Positions 3,850 to 51,405 of a DNA stretch of 64,000 nucleotides are shown here, piece after piece. The notes beneath the pieces are model-generated. The model made no database searches, was not told where the DNA came from, and saw only the letters and a list, made by a program, of their open reading frames with translations. Where the stretch lies: assembly GCF_034480035.2 (NCBI RefSeq), contig NZ_CP118753.2, positions 581,001 through 645,000 on the forward strand, read 5' to 3'. The stretch comes from Methanosphaera sp. ISO3-F5. GTDB lineage: Archaea > Methanobacteriota > Methanobacteria > Methanobacteriales > Methanobacteriaceae. Position numbers and translations under genes: made by a program. The stretch's first letter is position 1. Each line of letters begins with the position of its first letter.

Positions 3850-3901
3850 TAAGTTATAGTAATAATAGTATTACATATAAACTTTCATGAAGGGTGATTA
3901 A

Positions 3902-4039
3902 ATGTTTGAGAAAAGGGATGATATTTATTATGTGGCAGCGATTGTTGTCGGGATTTTAATTATTGTTTATCCTGCATTGGTTGCTTACATTTTAGGTCTT
4001 GTCCTCATTATATATGGTGCATTAATGGTTATTAAATAG
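3902..4039 (+). CDS. 45-residue membrane mini-protein (DUF3096-like)
   Basis: A short ORF with a well-placed AGGGTGA ribosome binding site 5' of the ATG. The product starts with a charged MFEKRDD segment, followed by two hydrophobic stretches separated by a short YPALVAY turn, which is the pattern of a two-helix hairpin membrane protein. It resembles the small DUF3096/DUF308-type proteins in which each helix pair carries a conserved proline-containing turn. Its function is unknown. It is 52 bp downstream of argH and could be co-transcribed. Its last 8 bases overlap the end of the convergent KH/PP-loop gene. Confidence 0.7.
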   Translation: MFEKRDDIYYVAAIVVGILIIVYPALVAYILGLVLIIYGALMVIK

Positions 4040-5057: not shown

Positions 5058-6704
5058 TTAATCGCACTCGTATATTTTTATTCTGATATTTTCTTTGTTG
5101 TTATCGTATATGGGGTGGTATCCTGTTATGTTTGTGAGGTTGCTTGTTGAGTCTATGTAGTATTTTGCGTTTATGCTTTTTAGTTTATCTGTTAAGTTTT
5201 CATTGTTTGCTTTGAGTACTCTTGGTATTGTTGTGTATGTGTATTTTTTCAGGTACCAACTGTATGTTACTCCTCTGTCTGATGATATGTTGTATTTTTT
5301 GTATTGTGGGTCGTAGTCTTTCAGGTAGTTGCTTGCTAGTTTTTCTTCGTGTGTATGTGGTGGTTCCTGTGTTATTGATGTTATGTAAATTGCGTTTATT
5401 GGTATTAGTAGTATTAGTATTATTGTTAGTGTGGTTAGTGTTTTCTTTTTGTCTTTGAATATGTTTTTGGTTGATTTGCATATGAAGTATGTTATTGGTA
5501 TTAGTATTGGTATTATGTATCTATCAACTTTTACCGGATGATAAGAATGCATTATAATGAAAATTCCCATCCATAAAAACATAACATAGTCCATCTGGTT
5601 ATCTTTATCTGGAAGCCATTTATAATATAATAATAGTATGGACGTAAAGAGTAATTCTGTTATTATATAAGATACATGATTATAACTAATTATTGCAATT
5701 ATTGATAAAAGCACTATAAACGAAACTTTCAAATACCTATAATCTATCTTCTCCTTATCATAACATACCAAATTAGAAGCAAACTTAACAATATAAACAG
5801 CAACTAAAGCCAAAAGCACATACGATAAAACAGTAGGACTATTATAACTAATGGACAAATTACTAAAATATTCATTAGAAATCGCGTTACTTGTTAAATA
5901 CTGGGGCAAATTCTGGAAATAATAAAACGGATTTAAATCATAACCCACATTAATACTTGAAACCTGACTACTACTAGACACCTCTAAAAATTGACTAATA
6001 AAAGGAATTGTGCCCTGAAAACTAATATAAACTCCGCTGATAATACCAGCAATAATAATACAATATACCACTACGCTACAAACACGTCTGAAAGTTAACT
6101 GCCTCTTAAAATCATCAAAATTCAACAAAAGATAAAAACCCATAACAATAAGAATAAAACCCTCAGTAAACCTGGTGAAAAATGCTAGGACAAAGAATAA
6201 TATAGCCAAATAATAATACTTAAAATCATTCTCCAAACCCTTGATAGTACAATACAAAGCCCAAACACTAAAACATAATGCAGGAACATCAGTAGCACCA
6301 GTTAAAGCCCAGGTCACAACAAGTGAAAACATTGAAAAAATCAAACTACCAACAAATGACACTTCCTCATCAAAATACTTATTAAACAATAAGAAAATTC
6401 CAATAACAAGGAAAAAGAATAAAATACCTGAAACAACAAACATTGAAGTTTCAGAAACAAAGCCCAACTGAAAAGGAACAGAAACAAGCAATGAAAACAC
6501 TGGTGGAACACTCAACTGACTACCAATATTAATATGTGAAAAAAGCATAGCATTCTGTAAGTAAACAAAAATATCCCAATAACTCACTCCTCTAATATTC
6601 TGACAGCAAACAAGAATAAAAGAATAAACTAGCATAATAATAGAAAGCAGGGTAAGCAGGGAATTATCCTTCAAAATCTTCTTTAAATCATACATAATTA
6701 TCAT
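5058..6704 (-). CDS. Polytopic membrane glycosyltransferase, GT-C type (1)
   Basis: A 548-residue protein with about a dozen hydrophobic segments and a soluble C-terminal domain of about 100 residues. The first extracytoplasmic loop contains SYWDIFVYLQNAMLF, which fits the loop-1 acidic residue of GT-C glycosyltransferases (GT39/GT83-like, polyprenol-phosphate-sugar donors). Such enzymes add sugars to exported proteins, lipids or pseudomurein-associated polymers. It is a paralog of the next gene upstream (6688-8481), which it overlaps by 17 bp, and the pair is almost certainly an operon with the KH/PP-loop gene. An in-frame ATG at 6695 is an alternative start. Strand composition switches sharply inside the gene near 5,520. 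Acceptor and donor are unknown. Confidence 0.7.
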   Translation of the reverse strand: MIIMYDLKKILKDNSLLTLLSIIMLVYSFILVCCQNIRGVSYWDIFVYLQNAMLFSHINIGSQLSVPPVFSLLVSVPFQLGFVSETSMFVVSGILFFFLVIGIFLLFNKYFDEEVSFVGSLIFSMFSLVVTWALTGATDVPALCFSVWALYCTIKGLENDFKYYYLAILFFVLAFFTRFTEGFILIVMGFYLLLNFDDFKRQLTFRRVCSVVVYCIIIAGIISGVYISFQGTIPFISQFLEVSSSSQVSSINVGYDLNPFYYFQNLPQYLTSNAISNEYFSNLSISYNSPTVLSYVLLALVAVYIVKFASNLVCYDKEKIDYRYLKVSFIVLLSIIAIISYNHVSYIITELLFTSILLLYYKWLPDKDNQMDYVMFLWMGIFIIMHSYHPVKVDRYIIPILIPITYFICKSTKNIFKDKKKTLTTLTIILILLIPINAIYITSITQEPPHTHEEKLASNYLKDYDPQYKKYNISSDRGVTYSWYLKKYTYTTIPRVLKANNENLTDKLKSINAKYYIDSTSNLTNITGYHPIYDNNKENIRIKIYECD

Positions 6705-8481
6705 GCGTCCTATTATACTCGTTTATATCATTTCTTAGTTTATTATTATAATCTTCAGTCCTCAGGTAGTCATAACCCTTATTCAAATACTTATTCTCAT
6801 ATATTCCAACACTTCCAACTTGTTTAATTAAATTTAAGCCAGGATAATCATATTTTACACTGCTTGTTGTGTCAAGATAATATGATGATGGCTGATGTTC
6901 CGGAGAATACGTTAATATTTCCTCAGCAAATTTCACACGCGCTGACACATTACTCGTGTTTATCACGCCACGCTGAGCATATATATTCAAGTACCATGTA
7001 ACTGCGGGCCAATTATCCGAATGAACATAAGTCGTATTATTTATATGTCTATTTTCAAAGAGCCACTCACATGCATCACCTATATCCTCATAATCGTTTC
7101 TTGTAGGAATTTCACCTACAAACAGCAAAGTATTAAACAGTAACGCCAATACAATAACTACTGTTGCTATTTTTCTTAATTTAATTCCGTGCTCATATTT
7201 ACTTAAATAAGTAAACAATGAATCTATGGCATATGTAATAAAGTATGCTATGAATGGAAGTACTGTGATAAAGTACCTGTCATTCTTTGTAAACAATATA
7301 GACTGAAATATCAGGTATGTTACAAACAGTGAAATCATTACTAGTTCATAGTCTAAGTCTTTAATATCATATGGTTCTAAGACTTTCCAATATATGAATA
7401 ATATGATCAAAAAGATGACTGAACTAAAAATGTATGATATAGATCCTAACGTAAACAGGAAAATTATAAACAACACTAATGATAATCCAATCCCTATCTT
7501 ACTAATACCATTTAATTCATGTTTGCTGCTTTTAACGGCATCATATAATTTATAAAAGAGTAATATGAATCCTAACAGGAATAATAGGATATATGCATAT
7601 GCTATAATGGATGGCATATTTCCCATAGGATTAACAATGGCGTTAAAAGTATCTACATTTGGAACATAACTCATTAAGTAGTTAGGTAAGTGATTAATAT
7701 AATACCAGCTATCCGGAAGAAAACCTGAATCTAAAACAACTGTATTAGAAACGGTTCCACTGAACTGTCCTAAAAATGGGAAAGCTGTTCCAAGATGAAT
7801 ATAAAACTGGTATAAGAACCAGCTAACACTAATAACACCTAAAATTCCGCCAACAATGATGTGTTTTATCTCATGAAGGTTTACTCTATTAATAATAAGA
7901 TAAAATAGTAATGTAAAAATCATCACTCCCGCAGTATATCTTGAAAGGAATGCATATGCAGCAATAGGGAATGCTAACAAATACCATTTGTGGTTGAATT
8001 TATGGGCAATAATAAACAGGTATACTGTAAGAATTGTTCCAGTAACTCCTATAATGTCATTTCCACCGATTGCAACCCATGAGTATAATAAAGTAAATGT
8101 TGAAAAGATGACACTTCCAATAAAACTAATATTTTCATTAAATTTTAGTCTTAAAAGTAAATAAAATGATAATATTCCTATAATATAAAATACTGCATCA
8201 ATATTGAATATTGCTTCCTTGTATGTGTGGCCGGCTATCAGGAACATTTTTGATAGAATTATTGGCAGTACTGGAGCAATGCTGGGAACGTCACCCCAGC
8301 CCATTTTAGCAAAAACTCTACCATTTTCTAAATAGAGGTATGTGTCCCAGTTTCCTATTCCAATATTATATTGGGCATATAATTTGGGAATGGTAATTAT
8401 TAGTAAAAAAATGGATAATGCTAAAATGTATAGTAAATCCTTTTTATTATCTGTGATAAAAGTTTTTATATTATTAATCAT
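6688..8481 (-). CDS. Polytopic membrane glycosyltransferase, GT-C type (2)
   Basis: A 597-residue integral membrane protein built like its downstream neighbour: an N-terminal helix, a loop with NWDTYLYLENGRVFAKMGW containing the candidate catalytic aspartate, many membrane helices, then a hydrophilic C-terminal domain (from about residue 455) with VHSDNWPAVTWYLNIYAQRG. The paired conservation of the WD.YLY-N loop in both proteins supports a GT-C fold (dolichyl-phosphate-sugar dependent). It is first in a three-gene minus-strand operon. A role in cell-surface glycosylation is inferred from fold and context only. Confidence 0.7.
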   Translation of the reverse strand: MINNIKTFITDNKKDLLYILALSIFLLIITIPKLYAQYNIGIGNWDTYLYLENGRVFAKMGWGDVPSIAPVLPIILSKMFLIAGHTYKEAIFNIDAVFYIIGILSFYLLLRLKFNENISFIGSVIFSTFTLLYSWVAIGGNDIIGVTGTILTVYLFIIAHKFNHKWYLLAFPIAAYAFLSRYTAGVMIFTLLFYLIINRVNLHEIKHIIVGGILGVISVSWFLYQFYIHLGTAFPFLGQFSGTVSNTVVLDSGFLPDSWYYINHLPNYLMSYVPNVDTFNAIVNPMGNMPSIIAYAYILLFLLGFILLFYKLYDAVKSSKHELNGISKIGIGLSLVLFIIFLFTLGSISYIFSSVIFLIILFIYWKVLEPYDIKDLDYELVMISLFVTYLIFQSILFTKNDRYFITVLPFIAYFITYAIDSLFTYLSKYEHGIKLRKIATVVIVLALLFNTLLFVGEIPTRNDYEDIGDACEWLFENRHINNTTYVHSDNWPAVTWYLNIYAQRGVINTSNVSARVKFAEEILTYSPEHQPSSYYLDTTSSVKYDYPGLNLIKQVGSVGIYENKYLNKGYDYLRTEDYNNKLRNDINEYNRTHDNYV

Positions 8482-8855
8482 AAGAAAAAATATCCATTAT
8501 TCTTTTTATGTTTACTTTATTTTTTAAAAGATTTAAATTTTGGTTCTATGCTAATCTGGTGGTGACGATTTAATATTATTCTGGGGTAGTGTATTATTTG
8601 ACCAAATGGCCTATATTAATTATTATGGTAATTGTATTACTGTAATTTTATAAAATCGCCTTTATAAATGGTAAATATAAAAAAGACTTTTTTGTAAAAT
8701 CAATTACAAAAAGTTCAAATAATAAAATAAGTTTTAATTTATTTTTTTTTAAAAAAAATAAATAAATGATTAAATTATATCAAAAATATGATATTTTAAT
8801 CATTATTTCCTATAAATTTTTCAACGTTCAATTTTAATTTCTTTCTTTATACTAT
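8482..8855. other. Intergenic region, no gene seen
   Basis: This 374-bp AT-rich spacer holds the upstream region of the glycosyltransferase operon and the 3' flank of the histone gene. A slightly more GC-rich patch near 8,555-8,620 has no open frame on either strand beyond a few codons and no tRNA-like fold. Confidence 0.5.
8738..8767 (-). terminator. Probable histone-gene terminator
   Basis: About 100 bp past the histone stop codon, the minus strand reads TTATTTTTTTTAAAAAAAAA, an oligo-T tract within a T/A palindrome. This is a typical archaeal stop for a highly expressed short transcript. Confidence 0.5.
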
Positions 8856-9065
8856 CTAGAATTTTAACTTAATAGCTAATTGAACATCAGAAGCTTTAAC
8901 AGTTTTTCTACCAGAGTGTGTAGCAATTTTAACTGCTTCTTCAGCTATTTCTTCACCGTGTTCAGATAAAATGTTTGATAATTCAATTTTAGCGTCTTTT
9001 GTTGCTCTAGGAGCACCACCATTTGATAAAATTCTGCCTATAGGTGCTATTGGTAAAGTTTCCAT
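8856..9065 (-). CDS. Archaeal histone (HMf-like)
   Basis: A 69-residue single histone-fold protein that packages DNA as dimers and longer hypernucleosome stacks. It shows the family core: LPIAPIGRI at the start, the alpha-1 to loop-1 segment with GAPRATKDAK, the long alpha-2 (ELSNILSEHGEEIAEEAVKIA), and the C-terminal SGRKTVKASDVQLAIK with the L2-loop RKT triad. The ATG at 9065 is preferred over an in-frame TTG 18 bp upstream because AGGAGTG lies at 9071-9077, just before it, and homologs begin with ME-LPIAPIGRI. The gene is monocistronic with its own promoter and terminator. Confidence 0.96.
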   Translation of the reverse strand: METLPIAPIGRILSNGGAPRATKDAKIELSNILSEHGEEIAEEAVKIATHSGRKTVKASDVQLAIKLKF

Positions 9066-9100
9066 ATAATCACTCCTATACAAAATAATATATTTTTGTA

Positions 9101-9110
9101 GTATTTATAT
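9101..9110 (-). promoter_or_regulatory. TATA box of the histone gene
   Basis: The minus strand reads ATATAAATAC, a strong archaeal TATA box preceded by an A-rich BRE-like stretch. Transcription starting about 25 bp downstream, near 9080, would give a leader of about 15 nt containing the AGGAGTG ribosome binding site. The spacing of box, leader and start codon is self-consistent. Confidence 0.65.
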
Positions 9111-9790
9111 GTATTGTTTTCTTTTTCTTAAAAGTATTAACTTGATATATGATTATACAAGACTTATTGTTATAGTATGAAAACTAAAAATAGCAATAAA
9201 TTTGTTTTTAAACCATAAATCAATTTACCGTTATTTTTTCTAAAATGAAAAATGAGGTTTTTTCATTGTACATATTAACCTAACTTATTATTACTTTAAC
9301 CATAATTTGAAATACAAAATTAGATTGAATTATATTATAATCAAGACTTTAAAATATATTTTTATTTTCTATAAACAATATTTATTGAAAACTAGCTTAA
9401 ATGATTTTTTTTAATATTTAAATATCTAATATCAGTTATTTATTATTGATTTAAGGTTTATGACTTAATGGACTAAAATAGACTTCAAAAAAGATTTTAA
9501 ATTAAAAATTACTAAAATTTATTACAAAGATTGAAAATAATACTCTCCCAATAGTTAATATGTTTAAACATTTTTCAAAAAAATAAAACAAATTAAATAA
9601 ATTTTCTAAAATAATAAAATTATTTCCAAATGGTTCATTTTAACATACAATAACTAATAATTTCAACAATCCCAACAAAAACAAAAATATTTAATAAATA
9701 CAAAAAACATAATATTATAATGATAAATCATTGAAAAAATACCAGTCAATGAAAAAAAGGGAAAAAAATACAAAAAGGGGAGTGTATTAC
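9111..9790. other. Long AT-rich intergenic region
   Basis: About 680 bp between the histone promoter and the ABCE1 start. It is very AT-rich with many short A and T runs, and no convincing ORF, tRNA or stable hairpin was found. It presumably carries the ABCE1 promoter. The only clear site is a GGGGAGTG Shine-Dalgarno at about 9777-9784. Confidence 0.5.
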
Positions 9791-11566
9791 TTGTCACGAA
9801 TAGCAATATTAGAAAAAGACAAATGTCAACCAAAAAAATGTAACTACACCTGCATAGAATACTGTCCAGGAGTACGAATGGAAGAAGACACAATCATAAT
9901 TGGAGAAGACAAAAAACCAATCATCTCAGAAGAACTATGTTCCGGATGCGGAATCTGCGTAAACAGATGCGTATTCAACGCAATAAACATAATCAACCTA
10001 CCAGAAATGCTACAAGAACAACCAATACACAGATACGGACAAAACACATTCGAACTATTCGGAATGCCAACAATAGAAGAAGGATCAGTAGTAGGACTAC
10101 TAGGACCAAACGGAATAGGAAAATCAACAATACTCAACATACTATCAGGACAAACAATACCAAACTTCGGAAACTACCAAGAAGAAGGAAACTGGGACAA
10201 AGTAATAGAACACTTCAAAGGATCACAACTACAAAACTACTTCAAAAAACTATCAAACAACCAAATAAAAATAGCATACAAACCACAAATGGTAGACCAA
10301 CTACCAAAAGTAGTAAAAGGAAAAGTATCAGAACTACTAGAAGGAGTAGATGAAAGAAACAAAATGGAAGAAGTAGTAGAAAAACTAGAACTCCAAAACA
10401 CACTAAACCGCAAACTAGGAAAACTCTCAGGAGGAGAACTACAACGAATAGCAATAGCAGCAACAATACTAAGAGATGCAAACTTCTACTACATAGACGA
10501 ACCAACATCCTGGCTAGATGTAAAACAAAGACTAAACACAGTAGAAGTAATAAGAGACCTAACAGAAGAAAACAGAAACGTACTAGTAATCGAACACGAC
10601 CTAGCAACCCTAGACGCAATGAGTGACTACGTACACGTAATGTACGGAGAAGAAGGAGCATACGGAGTAGTAAGTAAACTAAGAGGAGTAAGAGTCGGAA
10701 TAAACGCATACATAAACGGATTCTTAAACGAAGAAAACATAAGAATAAGAAAACAACCAATAGAATTCGAAATAAGACCACCAAGTGACCTGATAGAATC
10801 AGAAACAATAACAAAATACACAGACTTCCACAAAAAATACGACAACTTCGAACTAGAAGTAGAAGAAGGAGAAATAAACCAAAGCCAAGTAATCACAGCA
10901 TTCGGACCAAATGGAATAGGAAAAACAACCTACGCAAAAATACTCGCAGGAGTAACAAAACCAGACTCCGGAGAAATCGAAGAAGAAATAAAAATAGCAT
11001 ACAAACCACAATACATACTATCAGACTTCGAAGGAACAGTACAAGACTTCCTATATATGAACGCAAAAGGATACGGAACAAACGTCTTCAAAACAGACAT
11101 ATCCAAACCATTCGACCTAGACAAAATACTGGAAAAACAAGTGAACAAACTCTCAGGAGGAGAACTACAAAGACTAGCAACCGCAGTAACACTCTCACAA
11201 GAAGCAGACGTATACGTACTGGACGAACCAACAGCATTCCTAGATGTAGAACAAAGACTTAAAGTAGCAAAAGCAATAAAACACTTAATAACAAGAGACG
11301 ACACATCAGCACTAATCATAGACCACGATATAGTATTCATAGATTACATATCAGATCGGGCAATGGTATTCTACGGAGAATCAGCAAAAAGTGGACATGC
11401 AACCGCACCAATAAACCTAAGAGATGCAATGAACAAATTCCTATCTGATGTAAAAATAACATTCAGAAGAGACAAAGAAACAAACAGACCAAGAGTAAAC
11501 AAACAAGAAAGCTACCTTGACAGAGAACAAAAAGAAAAAGGAGAATATTACTACCTGGAAGAATAA
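9791..11566 (+). CDS. ABCE1/RLI ribosome-recycling ATPase
   Basis: A 591-residue iron-sulfur ABC ATPase that splits terminated ribosomes into subunits together with aPelota/aRF1. The N-terminus has two 4Fe-4S sets ([17 protein letters not shown], then [13 protein letters not shown]). The first ABC domain has Walker [10 protein letters not shown], signature LSGGELQR and Walker [10 protein letters not shown]; the second has [17 protein letters not shown] and LDEPTAFLD. The TTG at 9791 is chosen as start because GGGGAG lies about 8 bp before it and the family begins [13 protein letters not shown]; the frame runs upstream to 9731 but that extension is not family-like. Codons are strikingly A/C-ended with almost no T, which produces long meaningless frames on the other strand. 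Confidence 0.95.
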
Positions 11567-11596
11567 ACTAAAAAACAAAATAAAGGTATGATAAAA

Positions 11597-12766
11597 ATGC
11601 ATATAATGATAGTGCCAACAATGGGATGTCCAGCAAATTGTAGCTACTGCTGGAACTCAGAAACAGTATCCAAAGTAATGACAAAAGAAACAGTCAATGA
11701 CATAGTAGACTGGTTAAAAGACTTCAAACAAGAACCAGTAACATTCACATTCCATGGAGGAGAACCATTACTTGCAGGATATGAATTCTACGAACATGCA
11801 CTAAAACAGATATCAACAAAACTATCACACTTATACCCAGCATATGCAATACAAACAAACCTATGGCAAATGGATGATAAAACAGCACAACTATTCAAAC
11901 AATATGAAATACCAGTAGGAAGCAGTCTGGACGGTCCAAAAGAATTAAATGACAAACAAAGAGGACAAGGATACTACGATAAGACACTAAAAGGATATGA
12001 AATAGCAAAAAAACATGATTTACGGGTAAGTTTCATAAGCACATTCACCAATTACTCCATAAAACATAAAGAAGAAATATTCGAGTTCTTCAAGAAAAAT
12101 GGATTAAATCTTAAAATACACCCAGCACTCCCATCCATAAAAGATGACAATGGTGACGGCTACGCATTAGAACCAAAAGACTACGGAGAATTAATGCTAT
12201 TCCTACTTGACCAATACTTGGACCTTGCAGATACAATAGAACTCAAAAATATTGACCATCTCTGTAAGGGAGTATTTATGAAAAGAGGATTTGTTTGTAC
12301 ATATGTAGACTGTATGGACAGCACATTCGCAGTAGGTCCTGAAGGAAAAATTTATCCATGTTATCGATTTGTAGACATGCCTGAATATGAAATAGGCCAC
12401 GTTAAAGATAAGCCAACACCAGAACAACTGATGAATACCAGGGCAGAGAAACTATTGCAGGAATACAAGGAATTTGTGGATGAAGACTGTAAGGAATGTA
12501 AGCATATTGATTACTGTAGGGGTGGATGTCCGTACAATGCATTAGCAATTAGTGATCATAAAGTAGAAAATGTTGATCCACACTGTGAAGCTTATAAGAT
12601 GATATTTGACAAGATTGATGAATTAATGAATGAGAAGTTAGACTTTGCATTTGAAGAACTTGATCAAACAGTGGAAAAAGATTATAATTTCACATTAAAT
12701 GTTGGATTTGAGAATATGCCAAAGGGTGGTAAAAAGTTCACGGTAATGGATATTGCAATGAAATAA
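11597..12766 (+). CDS. Radical SAM/SPASM maturase-like enzyme
   Basis: A 389-residue enzyme with the radical SAM 4Fe-4S motif CPANCSYC (Cys 11, 15, 18), the SAM-binding GGEP segment, and a C-terminal SPASM region. SPASM cysteines appear in CTYVDCMD, PCYRF, CKECKHIDYCRGGCP and PHCEAY. This layout matches anaerobic sulfatase-maturase-like and peptide-modifying enzymes, which use a 5'-deoxyadenosyl radical to crosslink or oxidise residues in a partner protein or peptide. The ATG at 11597 is preferred because AAAGGT lies 9-10 bp before it; the ATG at 11588 directly abuts that site. It starts 30 bp after ABCE1 and is probably co-transcribed. No obvious precursor peptide is adjacent, so the substrate is unknown. 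Confidence 0.85.
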   Translation: MHIMIVPTMGCPANCSYCWNSETVSKVMTKETVNDIVDWLKDFKQEPVTFTFHGGEPLLAGYEFYEHALKQISTKLSHLYPAYAIQTNLWQMDDKTAQLFKQYEIPVGSSLDGPKELNDKQRGQGYYDKTLKGYEIAKKHDLRVSFISTFTNYSIKHKEEIFEFFKKNGLNLKIHPALPSIKDDNGDGYALEPKDYGELMLFLLDQYLDLADTIELKNIDHLCKGVFMKRGFVCTYVDCMDSTFAVGPEGKIYPCYRFVDMPEYEIGHVKDKPTPEQLMNTRAEKLLQEYKEFVDEDCKECKHIDYCRGGCPYNALAISDHKVENVDPHCEAYKMIFDKIDELMNEKLDFAFEELDQTVEKDYNFTLNVGFENMPKGGKKFTVMDIAMK

Positions 12767-12788
12767 GATTTATTTCATACAACTACTA

Positions 12789-12797
12789 TTTTTTTTT
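12789..12797 (+). terminator. Oligo-T terminator
   Basis: A T9 tract 22 bp past the radical SAM stop codon, in the gap between two convergent genes, with a second T-run shortly after. It is likely to end the ABCE1-radical SAM transcript. Confidence 0.55.
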
Positions 12798-12837
12798 GGA
12801 TAAAATTTTTAAAAGAGGAATGTGGGAGAAGGTTAGT

Positions 12838-14424
12838 TTAAGGTAATGGGATTGGTACATCTGCTACTTCTATGTTGAATAGGTGTGGTTTCTTTTCTTC
12901 TATTGCTTTGGCTAGTTTTTCGTTTAGTTCTTCGATGCTTGTTATATTATCTGCTTCTATATTGTAAGCATTTGCTATTTTTATAAAGTCTGGATTTTCT
13001 AGGGTTACCTGGTATTTTGGTAGGTTTTCCATATCCTGCCATTGTTTAATGATTCCCAGCATGTTGTTGTTTATTATTATTACTATTATTGGGAGTTTGT
13101 ATGTGTTAATGACGGCTAATTCTTCTATTGTCATTTGAAGTGCACCGTCTCCAGTTACTGCTATTATCACATCTTCTGATCGTGTGTATGTTGCTCCTAT
13201 TGCTGATGGTATGGCATACCCCATTGGTCCTAGTCCTCCGGAGAATAGTATTTGACCATATTTTTCTACGGTCGAGTCAATTGTGAAGTATGTTGGTATG
13301 GTTCCTGCATCTATGGTTAGTGTGATGTTTTTATGAACGTGTTGTAGTATGTTTTTTATCACTGTTTCTGGGTGTAGTTTTGTTGTTTGTTCTTGTATTT
13401 TTCTAGGTTTTTCTTGTTGTAGGTTTATCCTGTTTGTCCATTTGTGTATATTTGTTTTTATTTCTTTTTTGTTTATTTCTTGTAGGAATTCTTTTATGTT
13501 GTTGTTGTGGAATGTTTTGGCCTTGTTGTGTTCTAGGTTTGTGTTGACTTGTATGATGTTTTCTGTGTTTATGTGACTTGTTGTTCTCTCGGATAGTCTT
13601 GTTCCTAACGCCAGTATTAAATCAGCATGTTCTGATGCATAATTTGCTTTTTTTGTTCCTCGGGTTCCTGTTAGTCCAAGGTTTTGTTCATCTTTTTCGG
13701 TTATGATTCCTCTTGCAGTCCATGTTGTTGTTAGTGGTATTTCTGTTTTTTTCATAAACTCTTCCAGTTCTTTTATAGCATCTGCATAAATAATACCGTA
13801 ACCTGCAATAATTAATGGTTTTTCACTTTCTTCTATACGTTTAATCATATCAATAATATCAGATTCATTAGGTGACTTAATTTTCTTGGTATGAATTACC
13901 TTGTGAGATATATTCATAGGTTTATTTTGAACATTTTTTGGTATATTAATATGGAACGGACCAGAAACACCATCATCAAAATGCATAAAAGCCTCATTAA
14001 TACTATTCTCTAACTTCTCAGGAGAACGAGCATGATAAGACTTAATAGTAATAGGCTTAAACACATCATTCAAAGGCAAATCCTGAAACGTATCCAAACC
14101 CTTAACATCAGTAGAAACATCACCCGTAAGAACAAGAAGAGGAACATTATCCTTAAAAGCCGTAGCAACACCCATAGTTAAGTTCATAGCACCAGGACCA
14201 GCAGTAGCAAGACAAACACCACACTTACCACTACAACGAGCATAACTATCAGCAGCATGAACAGCAGCCTGCTCATGCCTAGTTAAAACATGCTTAATCC
14301 TTGACTTACGCAGAGCCTCATAAATCGGGATAATCTGCTCACCAGGATAACCAAAAACATATTCAACACCATGCTCCTCCAAAAGTTTAACAAGATACTC
14401 AGCAGTATTTTTATCAGTCTTCAT
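12838..14424 (-). CDS. Acetolactate synthase-family TPP enzyme
   Basis: A 528-residue thiamine-diphosphate enzyme. The N-terminal PYR domain holds FGYPGEQIIPIYEAL and the activating glutamate at residue 51 (TRHEQAAVHAADSYAR), followed by ATAGPGAMNL. A central domain and a C-terminal PP domain follow, with the TPP motif GDGALQMTIEELAV...NNN. Overall it resembles the large subunit of acetolactate synthase (IlvB). No regulatory small subunit (IlvN) is next to it, so it may be a paralog acting on another 2-oxo acid. The ATG at 14424 is selected because GGGGGGAG lies about 8 bp upstream; the open frame extends 18 codons further but overlaps the previous gene. It follows the dUTPase-like gene by 16 bp. 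Confidence 0.8.
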   Translation of the reverse strand: MKTDKNTAEYLVKLLEEHGVEYVFGYPGEQIIPIYEALRKSRIKHVLTRHEQAAVHAADSYARCSGKCGVCLATAGPGAMNLTMGVATAFKDNVPLLVLTGDVSTDVKGLDTFQDLPLNDVFKPITIKSYHARSPEKLENSINEAFMHFDDGVSGPFHINIPKNVQNKPMNISHKVIHTKKIKSPNESDIIDMIKRIEESEKPLIIAGYGIIYADAIKELEEFMKKTEIPLTTTWTARGIITEKDEQNLGLTGTRGTKKANYASEHADLILALGTRLSERTTSHINTENIIQVNTNLEHNKAKTFHNNNIKEFLQEINKKEIKTNIHKWTNRINLQQEKPRKIQEQTTKLHPETVIKNILQHVHKNITLTIDAGTIPTYFTIDSTVEKYGQILFSGGLGPMGYAIPSAIGATYTRSEDVIIAVTGDGALQMTIEELAVINTYKLPIIVIIINNNMLGIIKQWQDMENLPKYQVTLENPDFIKIANAYNIEADNITSIEELNEKLAKAIEEKKPHLFNIEVADVPIPLP

Positions 14425-43012: not shown

Positions 43013-44848
43013 CAATGTCGTCAGGTTAAGCTTTTGATATGAAAATATTTTCCTGTTTTTTTTTGGCATATTAACTTTTTTTTTTAAAATGTTGGTTTGT
43101 ATTGTGTTTGTATGTATCTGTTGGGTGTTGTTTTCTTTCTTTCATATTGACGGGGCTTTTTAACTTTGTTTGGTGCGGGTGTGCATTTTTTTATTAAGTT
43201 ATTGATGAAGTTTTTGACTTTTGATGGATCTAATATTGTTTCGAATAAATCTATTTTTAATCTGCTGATAAGATGGGATTGATTTACATCATAATAATCT
43301 TTTTTTCCTTTTTTTCTCATATTTTTGTTAATTATTAGATTTAAGTATATTCTGGAATAGCAAAATATGTTATATAGTAAAAATGTAGAGTATATGTCTT
43401 GTTGTATTCCAATTTCTGTTTGTGCGGTGTAGTTTTGTATTTGTAGTCTTTGTTTAAGTGTTTTATATGTGCATTCTATTCCCCATCTGGCTTTATATAT
43501 TTCTTTTAATTGTTCTTTACTCATAGTTTCTTGTGGTAAATTTGTTATTAATGTTTCTATTTCTCCAGTTTCTAGTTTTATATTTACAATTCTTAAATTT
43601 AATGAATTAAAGAATCTTATTTTATTTTTAAAATAGTTGTTTTGGAATTGGTTTCGTCTTGTTTTGTCTAATTCTATTTCAACTATTTCATCATCAGAAG
43701 TCATGGATTCACGTTCTCCTATGTATGTGTCTTTTCTTAGTCTGATAACAAAATAACTATGCATTTCTATTATTCTAACCATTAATTCAATAGAATTATA
43801 TCCTCTATCGAATATAAATATGGATTTTTCAGGAATTATCAGTCTTTTACACTTTTCAATATTTTTATGAATCAAAGTATGCTCGCCAACACCCCTTTTG
43901 CCAATTAAACCATCAATCATGAAATCATTTAGAACATCAACAACACCTGAAAAGACAACATTAATCTTTTTATCATAATTTTCTTTAAACCCAAATTCTT
44001 TCAATGTTAACTTTTTATTTGGTAATTCAAAACGAGATCCATCACCAGCAAATAAACGAAACCCATAAAAAGTTCTAAAGAACTCACAATTCTTTTGTAA
44101 ATTTATATAACCAATATTTCTCAAATAATTAATGCTTATTCTTTTAAATACATCTGGATTGATATTAATTCTCTGTTCTGAAAAACTCTGTTTACTATAA
44201 CTACCAACACAATCTTTTGAATACTTTAAATGAGTATCAATATTGTTCTGAATAGTTTTACGTTGATTAAACAATATATGTTTAACATAATCACCAAAAC
44301 CCCATATACGATTACGAGTAAAAGCAGAATCATTCAAAACATGTTTTCTAAAATCAACACACTCAGATTCTATAGAATCTTCAATAAAAGAGTATTTAAA
44401 ATTATCATTTTCATACGGACAAACATTTTCTAATCCATCAAAAATCAAAAAGTAAATCAATAACTTACAACAAAATAATATTGAGGGAATGTTTTTTAGC
44501 TTCATAATATAAACTATTCCCTCATTTCATATATAAACTATTCTACTATTTTTAAACATAAAATAAAAATCATATAACTTCTTAATTATGCTACTATTTG
44601 ATAAATATCAAAATAACAAAAAAATAAAACCAGAATAATCACTATCAAATAAATAAAATAAGGATACTGTAAAATAAACATCATGAAGAAATAATATATT
44701 ATAAAAACATCTAATTTTAATTATATGAGCCTATTTTTAAAAATAGTTAAATAATTAAGAAATTTAATAAAAATTAGTTTATAAAAATCAGTTAAAATTA
44801 AATTTAAATCTTTTACATAAAGAAAGAAATCTTAACCTGACGACATTG
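43013..44848 (-). mobile_element. Complete IS4-type insertion sequence
   Basis: A 1,836-bp element with perfect 18-bp terminal inverted repeats, CAATGTCGTCAGGTTAAG at 43013-43030 and its complement at 44831-44848. A perfect 10-bp target duplication flanks it (43003-43012 and 44849-44858). It encodes one DDE transposase. Intact ends, duplication and transposase point to a recent and possibly still active insertion, located between the broken tnpB and the uvrC transcript. Confidence 0.92.
43084..44505 (-). CDS. IS4-family DDE transposase
   Basis: A 473-residue transposase. The DDE triad is visible: first Asp in LFAGDGSRFELPN near residue 164, second in SIFIFDRGYNSIELMVRI near 246, and the glutamate in the YREK-like motif YKARWGIECTYKTLKQRLQ near 350, the hallmark of IS4. 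The C-terminus is basic (KKPRQYERKKTTPNRYIQ). Full-length and free of stops. It cuts and pastes the element at the inverted repeats. Confidence 0.9.
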   Translation of the reverse strand: MKLKNIPSILFCCKLLIYFLIFDGLENVCPYENDNFKYSFIEDSIESECVDFRKHVLNDSAFTRNRIWGFGDYVKHILFNQRKTIQNNIDTHLKYSKDCVGSYSKQSFSEQRININPDVFKRISINYLRNIGYINLQKNCEFFRTFYGFRLFAGDGSRFELPNKKLTLKEFGFKENYDKKINVVFSGVVDVLNDFMIDGLIGKRGVGEHTLIHKNIEKCKRLIIPEKSIFIFDRGYNSIELMVRIIEMHSYFVIRLRKDTYIGERESMTSDDEIVEIELDKTRRNQFQNNYFKNKIRFFNSLNLRIVNIKLETGEIETLITNLPQETMSKEQLKEIYKARWGIECTYKTLKQRLQIQNYTAQTEIGIQQDIYSTFLLYNIFCYSRIYLNLIINKNMRKKGKKDYYDVNQSHLISRLKIDLFETILDPSKVKNFINNLIKKCTPAPNKVKKPRQYERKKTTPNRYIQTQYKPTF

Positions 44849-45436: not shown

Positions 45437-47260
45437 ATGTCAATGAAAATCACAAGCCCCGAAGAACTCCCACAAAAACCAGGAGTATACATCATGCACA
45501 ACAGTGATGATGAAATAATATACGTGGGCAAAGCAAAAAAACTAAAAAACAGGGTACAAAGCTACTTCAGAGAAGAAGACAAACTAGACAGACCAAAAAC
45601 ACAAGTACTAATGAAACACTTCTCATACCTAGAATACATATTAACAGACACAGAAAAAGAAGCACTAATACTAGAAGCAAACCTAATAAAAAGACATAAA
45701 CCACGATACAACATAAGCCTAAAAGATGGAAAACAATACCCATACATCAAAATAACAAACGAAGAATTCCCCAGAATACACATAACCAGACGACTACTAA
45801 ATGACGGAGCATCATACTATGGACCATACACCGATGCAACAAATGCAAGAGGATTCATAGACTTCATAAACAAAAACTTCAAAATAAGAACATGCAAACA
45901 CATGGACGGACCATGCTTAAACTACCAGATAAAACAATGCAGTGCACCATGCGTAAACTACATCACACAAGAAGAATACAATAAAAACATCAGAAGAGTA
46001 AAACTCTTACTCATGGGAAGATACAAGACCATACTAAAACAATTAAAAAAAGAAATGAACAAATACTCCAAAAACATGGAATTCGAAAAAGCAGCCATAA
46101 TAAGAGACCAAATCGAAAACATACAAGTAACACTAGAAAAACAAAACATCCAACCAACAAAAGACGTAGACCAAGACATCATCGGAATAGACCATAACGA
46201 CTCAGAAGCAGCAGTAGTAATAATATCAGTACGAAACGGAAAAACCAACAAAAAAGACGACATAATACTAAAACAAATAAACGGATTCACAGACACAGAA
46301 ATACTAACAGAATTCATAAAACAATACTATTCAACAGCACCAGCACCAGACGAAATAATACTCGAAGACTCAATAGAAGATGAAGAAATAATACTAGAAT
46401 GGCTAGAAGAAAAACAAGGACATAAAATAAAGATAAAAGTAGCAGAAGAAGGACATTACCTGACACTCATACGAATAGCTAAAAAGAATGCACACATCAG
46501 CTTAACAGAAAACACCAAAGAAGAAGAAAATCCATTACTCACACTAGAACAATACCTAAGACTACCAAAACTACCATACCACATAGAAGCATTTGATATC
46601 TCAAACATTTCAGGAATACACGCAGTAGCATCAATGGTAGTATTCGAAAATGCAAAACCAGCCAAAAAAATGTACAGAAAATTTAAGATGAACACACCAG
46701 GACCTAACGATTTTGCAATGATGAAAGAAGTACTAACAAGAAGATACTCCAGAATAGCACCCGGATACGATGAACAAAAAGCATCATCCGATTCCATGTA
46801 CATCAAACCAGACCTAGTACTTATAGATGGAGGAAAAGGACAACTAGGAATGGCAGTAGAAGTATTTAAGTCACTGGGAATCAATGACGTTCCACTGGTA
46901 GGACTTGCAAAAAAATTCGAAGAATTATACGTGCCAGGCAGAAGCCAACCAATCATTCTTCCAAGAAAATCAACAGCACTACACCTACTACAATACGTAA
47001 GAGACGAATCACACAGATTTGCAATAACATTCCACAGACAACTAAGAAGCAAAGCATTCACAAAATCAATACTTGACGAAATACCAGGCGTAGGAAAAAA
47101 ACGAAAACAAGCCCTACTAGCACATTTCGAAAATCTTGACGCAATATATGATGCAAGCTATGAAGAAATATGTGAAGTAGAAGGAATAAACAAAAAATTA
47201 GCAAAAACAATATACGAAACATTAGAAAATGATAAAAATAATAAAAAAAAGGAAATTTAA
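45437..47260 (+). CDS. uvrC: UvrABC excinuclease subunit C
   Basis: A 607-residue dual-incision nuclease. It has an N-terminal GIY-YIG domain (KPGVYIMHN...IIYVGKAKKLKNRV), a Cys-rich segment RTCKHMDGPCLNYQIKQCSAPC, a UVR motif (NMEFEKAAIIRDQIENI) for UvrB, the RNase H-like domain with EAFDISNISG and LVLIDGGKGQLGMA, and a tandem helix-hairpin-helix region (IPGVGKKRKQALLAHF, VEGINKKLAKTIYE). Codons are almost all A/C-ended. It stands on the opposite strand from uvrA/uvrB, and its stop overlaps the convergent flavoprotein gene by 4 bp. Confidence 0.97.
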   Translation: MSMKITSPEELPQKPGVYIMHNSDDEIIYVGKAKKLKNRVQSYFREEDKLDRPKTQVLMKHFSYLEYILTDTEKEALILEANLIKRHKPRYNISLKDGKQYPYIKITNEEFPRIHITRRLLNDGASYYGPYTDATNARGFIDFINKNFKIRTCKHMDGPCLNYQIKQCSAPCVNYITQEEYNKNIRRVKLLLMGRYKTILKQLKKEMNKYSKNMEFEKAAIIRDQIENIQVTLEKQNIQPTKDVDQDIIGIDHNDSEAAVVIISVRNGKTNKKDDIILKQINGFTDTEILTEFIKQYYSTAPAPDEIILEDSIEDEEIILEWLEEKQGHKIKIKVAEEGHYLTLIRIAKKNAHISLTENTKEEENPLLTLEQYLRLPKLPYHIEAFDISNISGIHAVASMVVFENAKPAKKMYRKFKMNTPGPNDFAMMKEVLTRRYSRIAPGYDEQKASSDSMYIKPDLVLIDGGKGQLGMAVEVFKSLGINDVPLVGLAKKFEELYVPGRSQPIILPRKSTALHLLQYVRDESHRFAITFHRQLRSKAFTKSILDEIPGVGKKRKQALLAHFENLDAIYDASYEEICEVEGINKKLAKTIYETLENDKNNKKKEI

Positions 47261-47838
47261 AGTGTTGCAGAATCAAGGTCAAGCTTATGTGGGATAACCT
47301 CATATTCATCGAGTTCATAACCAATATCCTCATAATCTTCCAATACCCATTCATCAAGTTTACTATCTATCATCAAATCTCCAATATCTAATATTTTATT
47401 AACTTGGAAATTACCAGTAGCCAAGCATCGATGAGTATTCTCTATTACAAAATCATTAATATTTTTAGACATATGTGTAATCATGAGAAGAGCTTTTGTT
47501 TCAGGTATTGTTAACTCAGGATCATAATTACATGAACCCAGACGATCTAAGAACATTTTTGAATGACCTGCAATATCATTATAAAATACAGGGGCCGTGA
47601 ATATGAAATAGTCTGAAGCTCTGATTTTATCCATTATGAGGTTATAGTCATCATCAAGTACACAACCACCTCCTTTTTCACAGGCTCTGCAACCAGTACA
47701 ATATTTTATATCATAATCATCCATAAACAGAACTTCGTTACTTCCATCATTGTCTTTGATTCCAATAGTTAAACGGTCAACAATTTGTTTAGTAAATCCG
47801 TTCCTATGGGACGATGTTATCAAGGTTAATACTTTCAT
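47257..47838 (-). CDS. Iron-sulfur flavoprotein (ISF-like, NADPH-dependent FMN reductase fold)
   Basis: A 193-residue flavodoxin-fold protein with the phosphate-binding start LITSSHRNGFTKQIV, a compact cysteine motif CTGCRACEKGGGC (residues about 47-59) that binds a 4Fe-4S cluster in methanogen iron-sulfur flavoproteins, and the FMN-contacting TAPVFYNDIAGHSKMFLDRLG. These proteins take electrons from ferredoxin and reduce O2, peroxide or other acceptors. It is the last gene of a four-gene operon and overlaps the upstream gene by 4 bp. A paralog lies at 50848. Confidence 0.85.
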   Translation of the reverse strand: MKVLTLITSSHRNGFTKQIVDRLTIGIKDNDGSNEVLFMDDYDIKYCTGCRACEKGGGCVLDDDYNLIMDKIRASDYFIFTAPVFYNDIAGHSKMFLDRLGSCNYDPELTIPETKALLMITHMSKNINDFVIENTHRCLATGNFQVNKILDIGDLMIDSKLDEWVLEDYEDIGYELDEYEVIPHKLDLDSATL

Positions 47839-48536
47839 ATATAATCACCAGGATTAAGTTTTTCATTACCAAAAGGACAAATATATAAGCACATTCCACA
47901 TGCAACAGGATGACCCTCATTTTTTCGTGACATTAAAAATTCACCACACTTTTCAGGACTATAAGACTTTTTAGGGTCAGGTAAATCAGTAATTGCTTTA
48001 CCGGGGCATGCTTTAACACAAACAGTACATTTTCCACAAGGAGACTCCATAGTATCTCCGGCATATTCAGATAATGGTGCATTTGTAAGAATTGTTGCCC
48101 AAGTTAATCTTGGACCAAACTCCTTTGTAGTTAAAAGATTATTCTTTCCTAACCATCCAATACCAGCAAGATGGGCACTAGCTTTATTACTGAAAGGCAT
48201 TTTAAGGTTCAAATTCTCATTTTTACCTGATACATCAAGAACTAATGCATCATAGCCCTCTTTTTCAATTTCTTCAACAATTCTGTCAGCAATCTTAGAA
48301 ACCCTTTGATGGGAATTAAAGTATTCATCCAAGTATTCCTGTGCTAATTTATCATTACTATATGTTAGGGGTATGTTTTCAATAATTTCTTCAATCATTT
48401 TATGGCCAATAGCAATAGCATAGGGGTATTTGCAAATGTCCTCTCCATATGTTTCTATCAGTTCATCCTTATTTTTTGAAAAATCTGCAACACCGTAAAT
48501 GTCACTATATTCTTCTAAACATTCAATTATTGACAT
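47835..48536 (-). CDS. QueG-like 2[4Fe-4S] protein
   Basis: A 233-residue protein resembling the C-terminal part of epoxyqueuosine reductase and related reductive-dehalogenase-like proteins. IGWLGKNNLLTTKEFGPRLTWATILTNAPL is the characteristic segment before two ferredoxin clusters, CGKCTVCVKACPGKAI and CGMCLYICPFG. The N-terminal half is short, so a canonical QueG role is doubtful; an electron-transfer partner of the adjacent flavoprotein is more likely. It is coupled to the downstream flavoprotein by a 4-bp overlap. Confidence 0.75.
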   Translation of the reverse strand: MSIIECLEEYSDIYGVADFSKNKDELIETYGEDICKYPYAIAIGHKMIEEIIENIPLTYSNDKLAQEYLDEYFNSHQRVSKIADRIVEEIEKEGYDALVLDVSGKNENLNLKMPFSNKASAHLAGIGWLGKNNLLTTKEFGPRLTWATILTNAPLSEYAGDTMESPCGKCTVCVKACPGKAITDLPDPKKSYSPEKCGEFLMSRKNEGHPVACGMCLYICPFGNEKLNPGDYI

Positions 48537-48542
48537 CCTAAT

Positions 48543-49118
48543 CTACTCAGTAAATCCTATGATAAGTGTTCCTATTCTTTCTTCATGTGATAATTCAAAG
48601 CAATCCTTAATGTAATGGTCGGTTCCAGTGGATGGAACAGCCACTTTAAGGCTTGTTACCATACTTTCCAAGTCTTCATCAGTGAAAAAAGAACTTGTGG
48701 AACTTGTCATTACAAAGAATTGTTTTTCACCGAGTGTTGCAAGATTGTTATATGTTACAAAGTTATCTGATAAGAAGAACACATTTGGATCGTTTCGTAG
48801 GTCTTCTAACTCTTCTTCATCATATATTGTTTCACCAATTATTTGTCCGGATTCTGTTCGGAGTGTGAAAGAATTATTGTCCACGTCTTCAGGACCCATT
48901 TCTCGTTCTGGCCTTTCATCATTATTTAAAACTATTACTAATGCTTCTTCTTCTTTGAAAGCTTCTTCCATTCCCTGGTTAATAAATGGTACTAGTTCAT
49001 CTAATCGTTTCATTTCATGTTGCAGGACTTGTTTTTTCATGTCATCTGTCATTAACTCTACAATCATGACACCTGGTTCTTCTTCTATTGTTTTAATCAG
49101 GTCTGTTGTAGCACTCAT
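48543..49118 (-). CDS. Small acidic protein, paralog family A (1), SseB-like?
   Basis: A 191-residue acidic protein, one of three paralogs in this locus. Shared motifs are EMKRLDELVPFINQGMEEA near residue 40, a central GQIIGETIYDEEELEDLRNDPNVFFLSDNF, and the C-terminal TDHYIKDCFELSHEERIGTLIIGF. Spacing and the EEELEDL...TLIIGF pattern vaguely recall SseB proteins, but I would not insist on that. The ATG at 49118 is chosen because AGGTGA lies 5 bp upstream. It lies between its sister gene and the QueG-like gene, with a gap of 6 bp to the latter. Confidence 0.65.
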   Translation of the reverse strand: MSATTDLIKTIEEEPGVMIVELMTDDMKKQVLQHEMKRLDELVPFINQGMEEAFKEEEALVIVLNNDERPEREMGPEDVDNNSFTLRTESGQIIGETIYDEEELEDLRNDPNVFFLSDNFVTYNNLATLGEKQFFVMTSSTSSFFTDEDLESMVTSLKVAVPSTGTDHYIKDCFELSHEERIGTLIIGFTE

Positions 49119-49134
49119 TATCTTCACCTATTTT

Positions 49135-49737
49135 CTAATCTTTTTTAACATTAAATCCTACAAGAATTGAAGCAAGCTTTGCATCATCTTCAAAATTAAA
49201 GTATTCTTTAATATAAAGATCTGCTAATGGGTCGGGACTACTTGACACTACATCACATGTATCCTCTAATTCTTCTACTTCAATAAATTGGACTGGTGGT
49301 AATACAAATGCTTGTTTTGTAGGATTTTTTTCTAATGCTTCACTTTTAAGATTGTTTTCCAGTTCTTTAGGGTCTTGTGTTAACACGAAGTCTGGTGTTA
49401 CGAATGTAGCATTCTTGTTGGATTCATGTTTCTGTTTCTGTTCATTGTTTACTATTTCTTCTCCAAGAATGTTTCCATGATTATCAACTAATTGTACTGT
49501 TGGTGTTGGAGGTGGTCTGAATGTTGCTGTTTTAATTATTGCTACGGTAAATTCTCTGTTTAAACATTCATGTACTCCGTAATTGATTACTGGTATGAGT
49601 TCTCCACTTTTTTCCATTTCTATTTCAAGGATATGTTTACGTACTTCGTCATTTAAAACACCAACGCTTTGAACTCCTCTTAGAGGATTTATGGTGTCTA
49701 AAACTTCTTGCAGTACTTCTTCAGGATTTTTAGTTAT
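49135..49737 (-). CDS. Small acidic protein, paralog family A (2), non-standard start
   Basis: A paralog of the previous protein of about 200 residues, sharing LEIEMEKSGELIPVINYGVHECL and the end ADLYIKEYFNFEDDAKLASILVGF. An ATG occurs only at 49617, which would remove the first 40 residues conserved in the sisters. The frame is open further upstream to a perfect GGGAGG (49750-49745). There the in-frame codons are ATA-ATT-ATA-ACT-AAA, so ATA at 49737 (or ATT at 49740) is the apparent start. Pro- and Lys-rich insertions in the middle distinguish this copy. It heads the four-gene operon, divergent from the HxlR gene. Confidence 0.6.
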   Translation of the reverse strand: MTKNPEEVLQEVLDTINPLRGVQSVGVLNDEVRKHILEIEMEKSGELIPVINYGVHECLNREFTVAIIKTATFRPPPTPTVQLVDNHGNILGEEIVNNEQKQKHESNKNATFVTPDFVLTQDPKELENNLKSEALEKNPTKQAFVLPPVQFIEVEELEDTCDVVSSSPDPLADLYIKEYFNFEDDAKLASILVGFNVKKD

Positions 49738-49821
49738 AATTATTCCTCCCTATTTTTTAGATTAATACTTAAAACTTGTTTAACATTATTTAAGTATTTT
49801 ATTGTATTTTAAGAGCAACTG

Positions 49822-49837
49822 GTATGTTCAAACATAC
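49822..49837. promoter_or_regulatory. Candidate operator: 7-2-7 inverted repeat
   Basis: GTATGTTCAAACATAC has two perfectly complementary 7-bp arms separated by CA. It lies in the control region between the operon starting near 49,740 and the divergent HxlR gene at 49876, just upstream of an AT-rich TATA-like stretch for hxlR. A winged-helix dimer of the neighbouring HxlR protein is the obvious candidate to bind here. This rests on position and symmetry only. Confidence 0.5.
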
Positions 49838-49875
49838 TATTAAATTATTTTTAATCCTAGGGTCAATATAATAAT

Positions 49876-50295
49876 ATGGATGAATACAAAGAAATTTTTG
49901 AATCATGGGGTGGCCCAGATTGTCCAATGGAAGCAACTGTGGAATTAATTGGACGAAAATGGGTTATAGCATTAATTAGAGATATGTATGTAGGAAAAAA
50001 ACATTTCACCGAATTTAAAAAGAATAAACCTGCTTTAAATAATTCTGTCTTGTCAGATACTCTTAAATTCATGTGTGAAAAGGGATTGGTTGAAAAAATA
50101 ATTATTGATGAAGATAAAAGAAGTAACACGGAGTATCACCTTACTGACAAAGCTAAAAAACTTAATCATGTTATATATGCCATGATATTATATGGATTGG
50201 ATGTATTGGATTGTTGTGATGAATTACCCGAGATTAAACATAAGATGAAAAAGGGGTACTATGAATTATTTGAAATAGGGGATTATAAAGAGTAG
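49876..50295 (+). CDS. HxlR-family transcriptional regulator
   Basis: A 139-residue MarR/HxlR-type winged-helix regulator. The family start CPMEATVELIGRKWVIALIRDMYVGKKHFTEF, the recognition region NNSVLSDTLKFMCEKGLVEK and the wing DEDKRSNTEYHLTDKAKKL are clear. HxlR proteins often sense electrophiles or redox state through the N-terminal cysteine (here C17); a further CC pair lies near residue 113. It is surrounded on both sides by flavoprotein and acidic-protein genes that it probably controls. Confidence 0.9.
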   Translation: MDEYKEIFESWGGPDCPMEATVELIGRKWVIALIRDMYVGKKHFTEFKKNKPALNNSVLSDTLKFMCEKGLVEKIIIDEDKRSNTEYHLTDKAKKLNHVIYAMILYGLDVLDCCDELPEIKHKMKKGYYELFEIGDYKE

Positions 50296-50846
50296 CCGAG
50301 GATGATTGTAATTATCCGGTCAGTATAATCCATATTGTACAGGTCCTTAATGTAATGGTCTGATTCTGTTGAAGGTGCTGCAATTGATAAGCTAGAAACA
50401 AGTTCTTCTATCTTGTCTTCACAGGATAATTCACCTCTTAGTTGACTTACCATGAAAAACTGTTTTTCGCCTGGTGTGGAAAGATTAGGGTATGTTGCAA
50501 AATATTCGGATATGAAATATACGCTGGGATCATTACGCAGGTCCTCTAGTTCTTCGGGGTCATATACTTCTTCTCCAATAAGAGTACCGTTTTCACTCAT
50601 AAGTGTAAGTGTTGGTATTTGTTCTTCAACAGGAACAATAACATCAGTCTTATCCTTAATGATGACCAATGAGGTATCTTCATTCAAAGCTTCTTCTACT
50701 CCTTTATTAATGAGGGGAACCATTTCATTAAGTCTTTTCATCTCTATTAAGGTTATATTCTTTTTAGCTTCCTCATTTAAAGTATCAACTTTAATAACTC
50801 TGTCATCATTTTCCAGTAGTTCCTTAATTTTTTCATGTACTGACAT
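50283..50846 (-). CDS. Small acidic protein, paralog family A (3)
   Basis: A 187-residue paralog of the proteins at 48543 and 49135. It shares LIEMKRLNEMVPLINKGVEEA, GTLIGEEVYDPEELEDLRNDPSVYFISEYFATYPNLSTPGEKQFF and SDHYIKDLYNMDYTDRIITIILGY. It is closest to copy 1. The ATG at 50846 follows the flavoprotein stop with a 1-nt gap (TAATATG), and AGGTGA lies at a proper distance. Its 3' end overlaps the convergent HxlR gene by 13 bp. Function unknown. Confidence 0.65.
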   Translation of the reverse strand: MSVHEKIKELLENDDRVIKVDTLNEEAKKNITLIEMKRLNEMVPLINKGVEEALNEDTSLVIIKDKTDVIVPVEEQIPTLTLMSENGTLIGEEVYDPEELEDLRNDPSVYFISEYFATYPNLSTPGEKQFFMVSQLRGELSCEDKIEELVSSLSIAAPSTESDHYIKDLYNMDYTDRIITIILGYSL

Positions 50847-50847
50847 A

Positions 50848-51405
50848 TTATTGTTCACCTACCAGTTCCTGTGCAGTCATTCTAACTTCTTCTATTAACC
50901 TATGGGAATCGCCCCGTGTTGGCTTATTTTCTCCTATTGATAATATTTTCACTAATTCACATCCAATAGAATTAAATACTCGTGCTTTCTTAGCTATATA
51001 TTCATCATAATGTCCATCTCTAGCTCCATAAGTATGAATTACAACACATTTGGGATTATTTTTTAATTGATTAGGGGTTGTTTTGGTCATTGAATAGAAC
51101 CGGTCCATGAAAACACGTCCTTGACCACATATTTCACCAAAATAATTGGGACATGCAAAAATAAAAGCATCCGATTCACTCACTTTTTTCATAACACGGT
51201 TAAAATCATCATCTAAAACACACATTGTGGGTTTTTCAAAACTTTTGCATGCCCTACATGCTTGACAACCCCTTATTTTCATATCTTCAACAAAGTACAC
51301 AGTATTGTGTCCATTGTTTTCTTCTATTACCTCTGTGAATATGTCCACAATATGCTTACAATTCCCATTTTTTCTCGGACTAGCAATTACACTCACAACA
51401 TTCAT
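50848..51405 (-). CDS. Iron-sulfur flavoprotein paralog
   Basis: A 185-residue FMN-reductase-fold protein with SPRKNGNCKHIVDIF, the cysteine motif CQACRACKSFEKPTMC and the flavin-side segment FACPNYFGEICGQGRVFMDRF. It is related to the ISF at 47257 and, like it, is paired with a small acidic protein. The ATG at 51405 is preferred because AGGGTG precedes it by about 6 bp and the flavodoxin fold starts there (MNVVSVIASPRKNG). First gene of a two-gene operon with the acidic protein. Confidence 0.82.
   Translation of the reverse strand: MNVVSVIASPRKNGNCKHIVDIFTEVIEENNGHNTVYFVEDMKIRGCQACRACKSFEKPTMCVLDDDFNRVMKKVSESDAFIFACPNYFGEICGQGRVFMDRFYSMTKTTPNQLKNNPKCVVIHTYGARDGHYDEYIAKKARVFNSIGCELVKILSIGENKPTRGDSHRLIEEVRMTAQELVGEQ

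Follow-up and report, generated by a model that had tools for sequence, protein, structure and literature searches.

We have found that a family of small acidic proteins, here termed ACI, is strongly linked to the methanol methyltransferase (mta) genes of Methanobacteriales, and that in a Methanosphaera genome consisting of a 2.51 Mb chromosome and a 174 kb contig, three ACI copies share a locus with two predicted FMN/[4Fe-4S] flavoproteins (ISFa and ISFb) and what appears to be a QueG/reductive-dehalogenase-like corrinoid-fold ferredoxin (QGL). This combination suggests that methane formation from methanol has an auxiliary system that is as yet undescribed. Our preferred reading, to which we tentatively assign a nearly even chance, is that the locus serves methanol-dependent methanogenesis in Methanosphaera as an accessory module, which probably keeps the corrinoid/redox machinery reduced. 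ISFa, ISFb and QGL would supply low-potential electrons to the MtaC corrinoid, which has to stay as Co(I), or would handle this corrinoid or assist RamA, and the ACI proteins may serve in docking or confer specificity. At the promoter on the ACI1 side, a thiol-based HxlR regulator could tune ACI1-ACI2-QGL-ISFa to oxidant or electrophile exposure.

Methanosphaera is a methanogen of the gut with methanol as its substrate. Passages in two published studies describe MtaABC in Methanosphaera and in several Methanobrevibacter-type gut methanogens, and report that growth on methanol has not been demonstrated for most Methanobrevibacter-type species (PMC13135261, PMC6120340). In two comparative papers on mtaABC distribution, the passages that bear on this subject name no ACI-like partner gene. 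An unnamed, conserved partner gene in all of these mta-bearing genomes provides a direct genetic handle on further needs of the pathway, and the locus would represent a candidate system for corrinoid maintenance in a gut archaeon that produces methane.

ACI occurs in 20/20 Methanosphaera genomes. Outside the genus, ACI was found in 16 of 131 Methanobacteriales genomes and MtaB in 16 of the same 131; the two sets are identical, so that ACI has the phyletic profile of MtaB down to the level of species within a genus. The probability of such a match arising by chance, stratified by genus, is about 1e-12, an estimate that takes genus sizes from genome numbering and ignores relatedness inside genera. 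In 15 of the 16 non-Methanosphaera genomes, the neighbor of ACI is mtaA or ramA within an mtaB-mtaC-ramA-mtaA cluster, with a few genes intervening in one of the 15 (G131); the sole exception to the linkage is G035. The identical profiles and the close linkage, which the sequence-only reading had missed, are reasons for favoring the methanol module, and the mta neighborhood points to methanol/corrinoid metabolism rather than to a general stress locus. The sequence-only reading was to be refuted if the acidic proteins stood mostly in unrelated contexts; the outcome was not the one foreseen, in that outside Methanosphaera the family has as its neighbors not flavoproteins but mtaBC-ramA-mtaA. A pattern-limited scan of GTDB contigs recovered Methanosphaera-type ACI records only, a weak result since Methanobrevibacter-type members were missed as well. 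Relative to MtaABC and its RamA/MapA activase, one clade of the family (clade A, below) is genetically linked and has the same distribution in Methanobacteriales, but ACI is none of MtaA, MtaB, MtaC or RamA, has no family match, and resides here in a locus without an mta gene.

The locus spans positions 47257-51405 of the window, the whole 64,000-nt stretch of DNA that was analyzed, and the seven genes proposed within it proved to be genuine open reading frames with correct coordinates. The usual order in Methanosphaera is ISFb-ACI-(ACI1)-ACI-QGL-ISFa, with uvrC next on the opposite strand, and because the whole gene set is conserved across the genus, the arrangement is not attributable to chance. 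ACI2 (48543-49118, minus strand; ATG at 49118, with the ORF open to a GTG at 49127), ACI1 (49135-49737, minus strand) and ACI3 (50283-50858, minus strand) are homologous, with 28-44% identity overall and 42% between ACI2 and ACI3, and a search of this genome found no fourth copy elsewhere. Two motifs had been ascribed to all three copies; YIKD/YIKE is indeed present in each, but EELEDLRNDP is limited to ACI2 and ACI3. Predicted isoelectric points average 4.4-4.6 against a neighbor median of 5.0, so the proteins are acidic without being extreme. Scanning 32 members against Pfam and NCBIfam gave chance-level matches only, and a sequence search of the PDB gave no convincing match. The AlphaFold2 model is a confident alpha/beta fold (mean pLDDT 87, pTM 0.81), for which Foldseek found no match below E 0.08 among PDB and viral models. 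The invariant residues are P, N, G, F and P, with no Cys or His among them, and it is therefore unlikely, judging from the alignment, that ACI bears a redox cofactor itself.

ACI is usually encoded on the strand opposite to mtaA, in convergent orientation, and divergently from mtaB. It is therefore not part of the mta operon, which counts against the module reading. The same orientation would fit a role for ACI proteins as regulators of methanol gene expression, for example anti-activators or sensors, rather than as enzyme partners, with the ISF proteins and QGL supplying a redox signal. The lack of invariant Cys/His, the expansion of paralogues, and the non-ATG starts of the ACI1 copies in the flavoprotein locus (below), which hint at tightly set dosage, would all suit such a role. 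We nonetheless consider it unlikely, as neither Pfam nor the fold search detected a DNA-binding domain in ACI and the proteins are strongly acidic.

Within Methanosphaera, ACI1 has relocated between the mta cluster and the flavoprotein locus. A tree built by a quick method with SH-aLRT support separates clade A (all genera, mta-linked) from clade B (Methanosphaera only) with support of 100; ACI1 belongs to clade A and is the orthologue of the mtaA-mtaB-linked gene, and ACI2 (by alignment and tree) and ACI3 belong to clade B. The clade-A gene adjoins mtaA in G001, G002/G003, G008, G012, G013, G016 and G017, and on contigs that extend far enough it is flanked by mtaA and mtaB. It is found in the flavoprotein locus in the present genome (G000) and ten others, and G017 has it at both sites. 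In G000, mtaB directly follows mtaA with no ACI between them (L131). Identity between ACI1 and the mta-side copy is 76% in L084 and 39% in L112. Clade A is kept at one site or the other in 18/20 Methanosphaera genomes; the two genomes that lack it have a completeness of 70-77%. This persistence despite a changing position, whether the mtaA-mtaB gap or the flavoprotein locus, argues for the module. It also makes it very unlikely that ACI is a passenger hitch-hiking with mta clusters and the flavoprotein locus with no functional connection to either; common descent or joint transfer can maintain physical linkage, but the clade-A gene has been retained even after leaving the mta cluster, and an ACI has been fused to ISFb. 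A divergent clade-B ACI, in some cases seemingly degenerate (152-154 aa), is found at a third conserved site, with an ArsA-type ATPase and further housekeeping genes nearby (L074/L077/L094/L096/L071). Separately, a probable DDE transposase gene, identified by eye at 43084-44505, lies ~3 kb from the locus and is possibly relevant to gene relocation.

ISFa (47257-47838, minus strand) and ISFb (50848-51405, minus strand) are 36% identical, and both score above the Pfam FMN_red cut-off (PF03358; 47.8 and 59.3 bits, respectively), which places them in the FMN-binding flavodoxin-like fold. Together with the homology of the ACI copies, this agrees with the proposed pairing of paralogous flavoproteins and acidic proteins, and with the redox character ascribed to the locus, to which the Fe-S protein also contributes. 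The Isf proteins of methanogens carry a compact motif, C-x2-C-x2-C-x4-7-C, with 4-7 residues before the last Cys. ISFa and ISFb resemble them in the FMN_red fold and in a compact Cys motif near residue 48; the ISFa spacing of five residues, in a motif present in every orthologue, is within this range, whereas the ISFb spacing of eight is outside it. The present pair also differs from Isf in comprising two divergent paralogues and in the fusion seen in one species (G002/G003), where ISFb and an ACI form a single ORF of 372 aa that retains the Fe-S cysteines. This fusion, along with the conserved gene order, supports a coupling of ACI to the ISF proteins and thereby the module reading.

QGL (47835-48536, minus strand; 233 aa) had been described as a 2[4Fe-4S] protein. 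A Fer4_16 match over a 2[4Fe-4S] region upholds that description, but the protein is not merely a ferredoxin, being of the QueG/reductive-dehalogenase type. It carries the core motif of this corrinoid-fold superfamily ('AGIGWLGKNNLLTT'), and its predicted model has the fold; the protein is conserved across Methanosphaera. By hmmsearch, QGL matched an epoxyqueuosine reductase (5d08, E=2e-15) as well as reductive dehalogenases, and Foldseek matched the model to PceA/QueG (5m8u, 5d0a; E about 1e-4, prob 1.00) and to the human B12 chaperones CblD/CblC. This likeness to corrinoid-dependent reductases and B12 chaperones is a further reason for the module reading, and corrinoid binding by QGL may be proposed from it. 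Some features of QGL count against the reading. The model has a pLDDT of 66 overall and is good in the N-terminal half only, the C-terminal half being poorly modeled. With 53.6 bits against a cut-off of 200 for QueG (TIGR00276) and 45.4 bits against 160 for reductive dehalogenases (TIGR02486), QGL falls far below membership of either family, and it further differs in having no C-terminal HEAT part. Its orthologues are essentially confined to Methanosphaera, so most mta-bearing genomes do without it. ACI-QGL pairs recur away from uvrC, in L079 and L066, the latter with an MtaA-like gene nearby, and this co-relocation supports a coupling of the two proteins and favors the module. The L066 region (3241-13557) is a second locus of the flavoprotein type. 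It encodes the MtaA-like protein, which scores under the equivalog cut-off, together with one more flavoprotein and a second protein resembling QGL, and it looks like a redox/methyl-transfer island. A close QGL orthologue with one TGA interruption, not beside ACI, occurs outside Methanosphaera in G029 (L144, 5092-5793).

The HxlR-family regulator (49876-50295, plus strand; convergent with ACI3, with a 13-bp overlap) scores 50.6 bits against PF01638, for which the curated cut-off is 20.8, in agreement with its initial identification. Its Cys16 is aligned to Cys14, the sensing residue of HypR (4a5m), and is invariant in 9 orthologues, and Cys113 is likewise conserved in the alignments. This archaeal protein shares the HxlR domain and the N-terminal Cys with the HypR/YodB/HxlR redox regulators, but it has no equivalent of HypR Cys49, a Lys occupying the aligned position, and has in its place a conserved Cys toward the C-terminus. 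A role in redox sensing is accordingly plausible. Eight loci have HxlR divergent to ACI1, and every locus with HxlR also has ACI1.

A 16-bp palindrome, GTATGTT-NN-AACATAC, forms a conserved putative operator in the HxlR/ACI1 intergenic region (GTATGTT-CA-AACATAC at 49822-49837, with no strand assigned), its single exact copy in this genome. The exact sequence has five occurrences in 5/20 Methanosphaera genomes, each in the HxlR/ACI1 intergenic region, and a reversed control pattern has zero across the 20 genomes. Exact palindromes stand 70-84 nt upstream of the ACI1 start and near matches (L062, L082) 81-86 nt. In L062 both arms are altered together (GTATTTT/AAAATAC), and in L066, where HxlR is farther off, the palindrome still accompanies ACI1. 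Position and conservation suggest that HxlR binds the palindrome, and the paired arm changes, like the alignment of Cys16 with HypR Cys14, are consistent with the switch proposed for the module. A site with one mismatch (C1:1358508) was taken as a chance occurrence, as it is surrounded by very long ORFs with no recognizable HxlR or redox gene. The sequence-only reading had placed both arms of the locus under one regulator; since the palindrome is always in the HxlR/ACI1 region, the regulator would control one arm and not both. The ISFb-ACI3 arm yielded no such site, and most orthologous loci lack HxlR while keeping the other genes, so common control is not supported; it was rejected for want of a second exact copy in the genome.

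The HypR-like Cys, the two conserved Cys of HxlR and the FMN reductase-fold proteins would also suit a general thiol/oxygen-stress locus, in line with the sequence-only reading, in which HxlR senses electrophiles, ISF/Fe-S proteins detoxify and the methanol link is incidental. That explanation appears doubtful to us: HxlR is missing from the majority of orthologous loci, in which the other genes persist, and outside Methanosphaera the acidic family has exactly the distribution of mtaB and is linked to mta genes.

Because ATG, GTG and TTG are absent at its conserved start, ORF finders shorten ACI1 to 160 aa, and canonical callers may miss it owing to its non-canonical start; homology extends the protein to about 200 aa. 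Of 12 ACI1 copies in flavoprotein loci, none begins with ATG; eight have ATT, two ATA, and the remaining two GTG and TTG. The ATT/ATA starts (window 49735-49750 and orthologues L061, L062, L063, L065, L066, L070, L072, L082 and L086) follow a purine-rich sequence that resembles a Shine-Dalgarno site (GGAGG or a near variant). In the window, GGGAGG (49745-49750, minus strand) precedes the probable ATA start at 49737 by 7 nt, and orthologues are similarly purine-rich. ATT/ATA is a putative initiation codon of these ACI1 copies. Mta-side copies mostly start with ATG, and one with ACG. In ten profile searches covering nine families, members with no ATG, GTG or TTG close to the start turned up for ACI alone (15 rows, including two fused proteins). 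A bolder proposal, which we hold to be possible and yet somewhat improbable, is that ACI is an undescribed family of unrecognized fold and a required Mta partner throughout Methanobacteriales, and that Methanosphaera elaborated it into an ISF/QGL corrinoid-maintenance module with a thiol-sensing switch and one copy translated from conserved AUU/AUA starts. ATG/GTG/TTG is likewise missing from the expected start of three ACI copies in a genome of another genus (G025, L102-L104).
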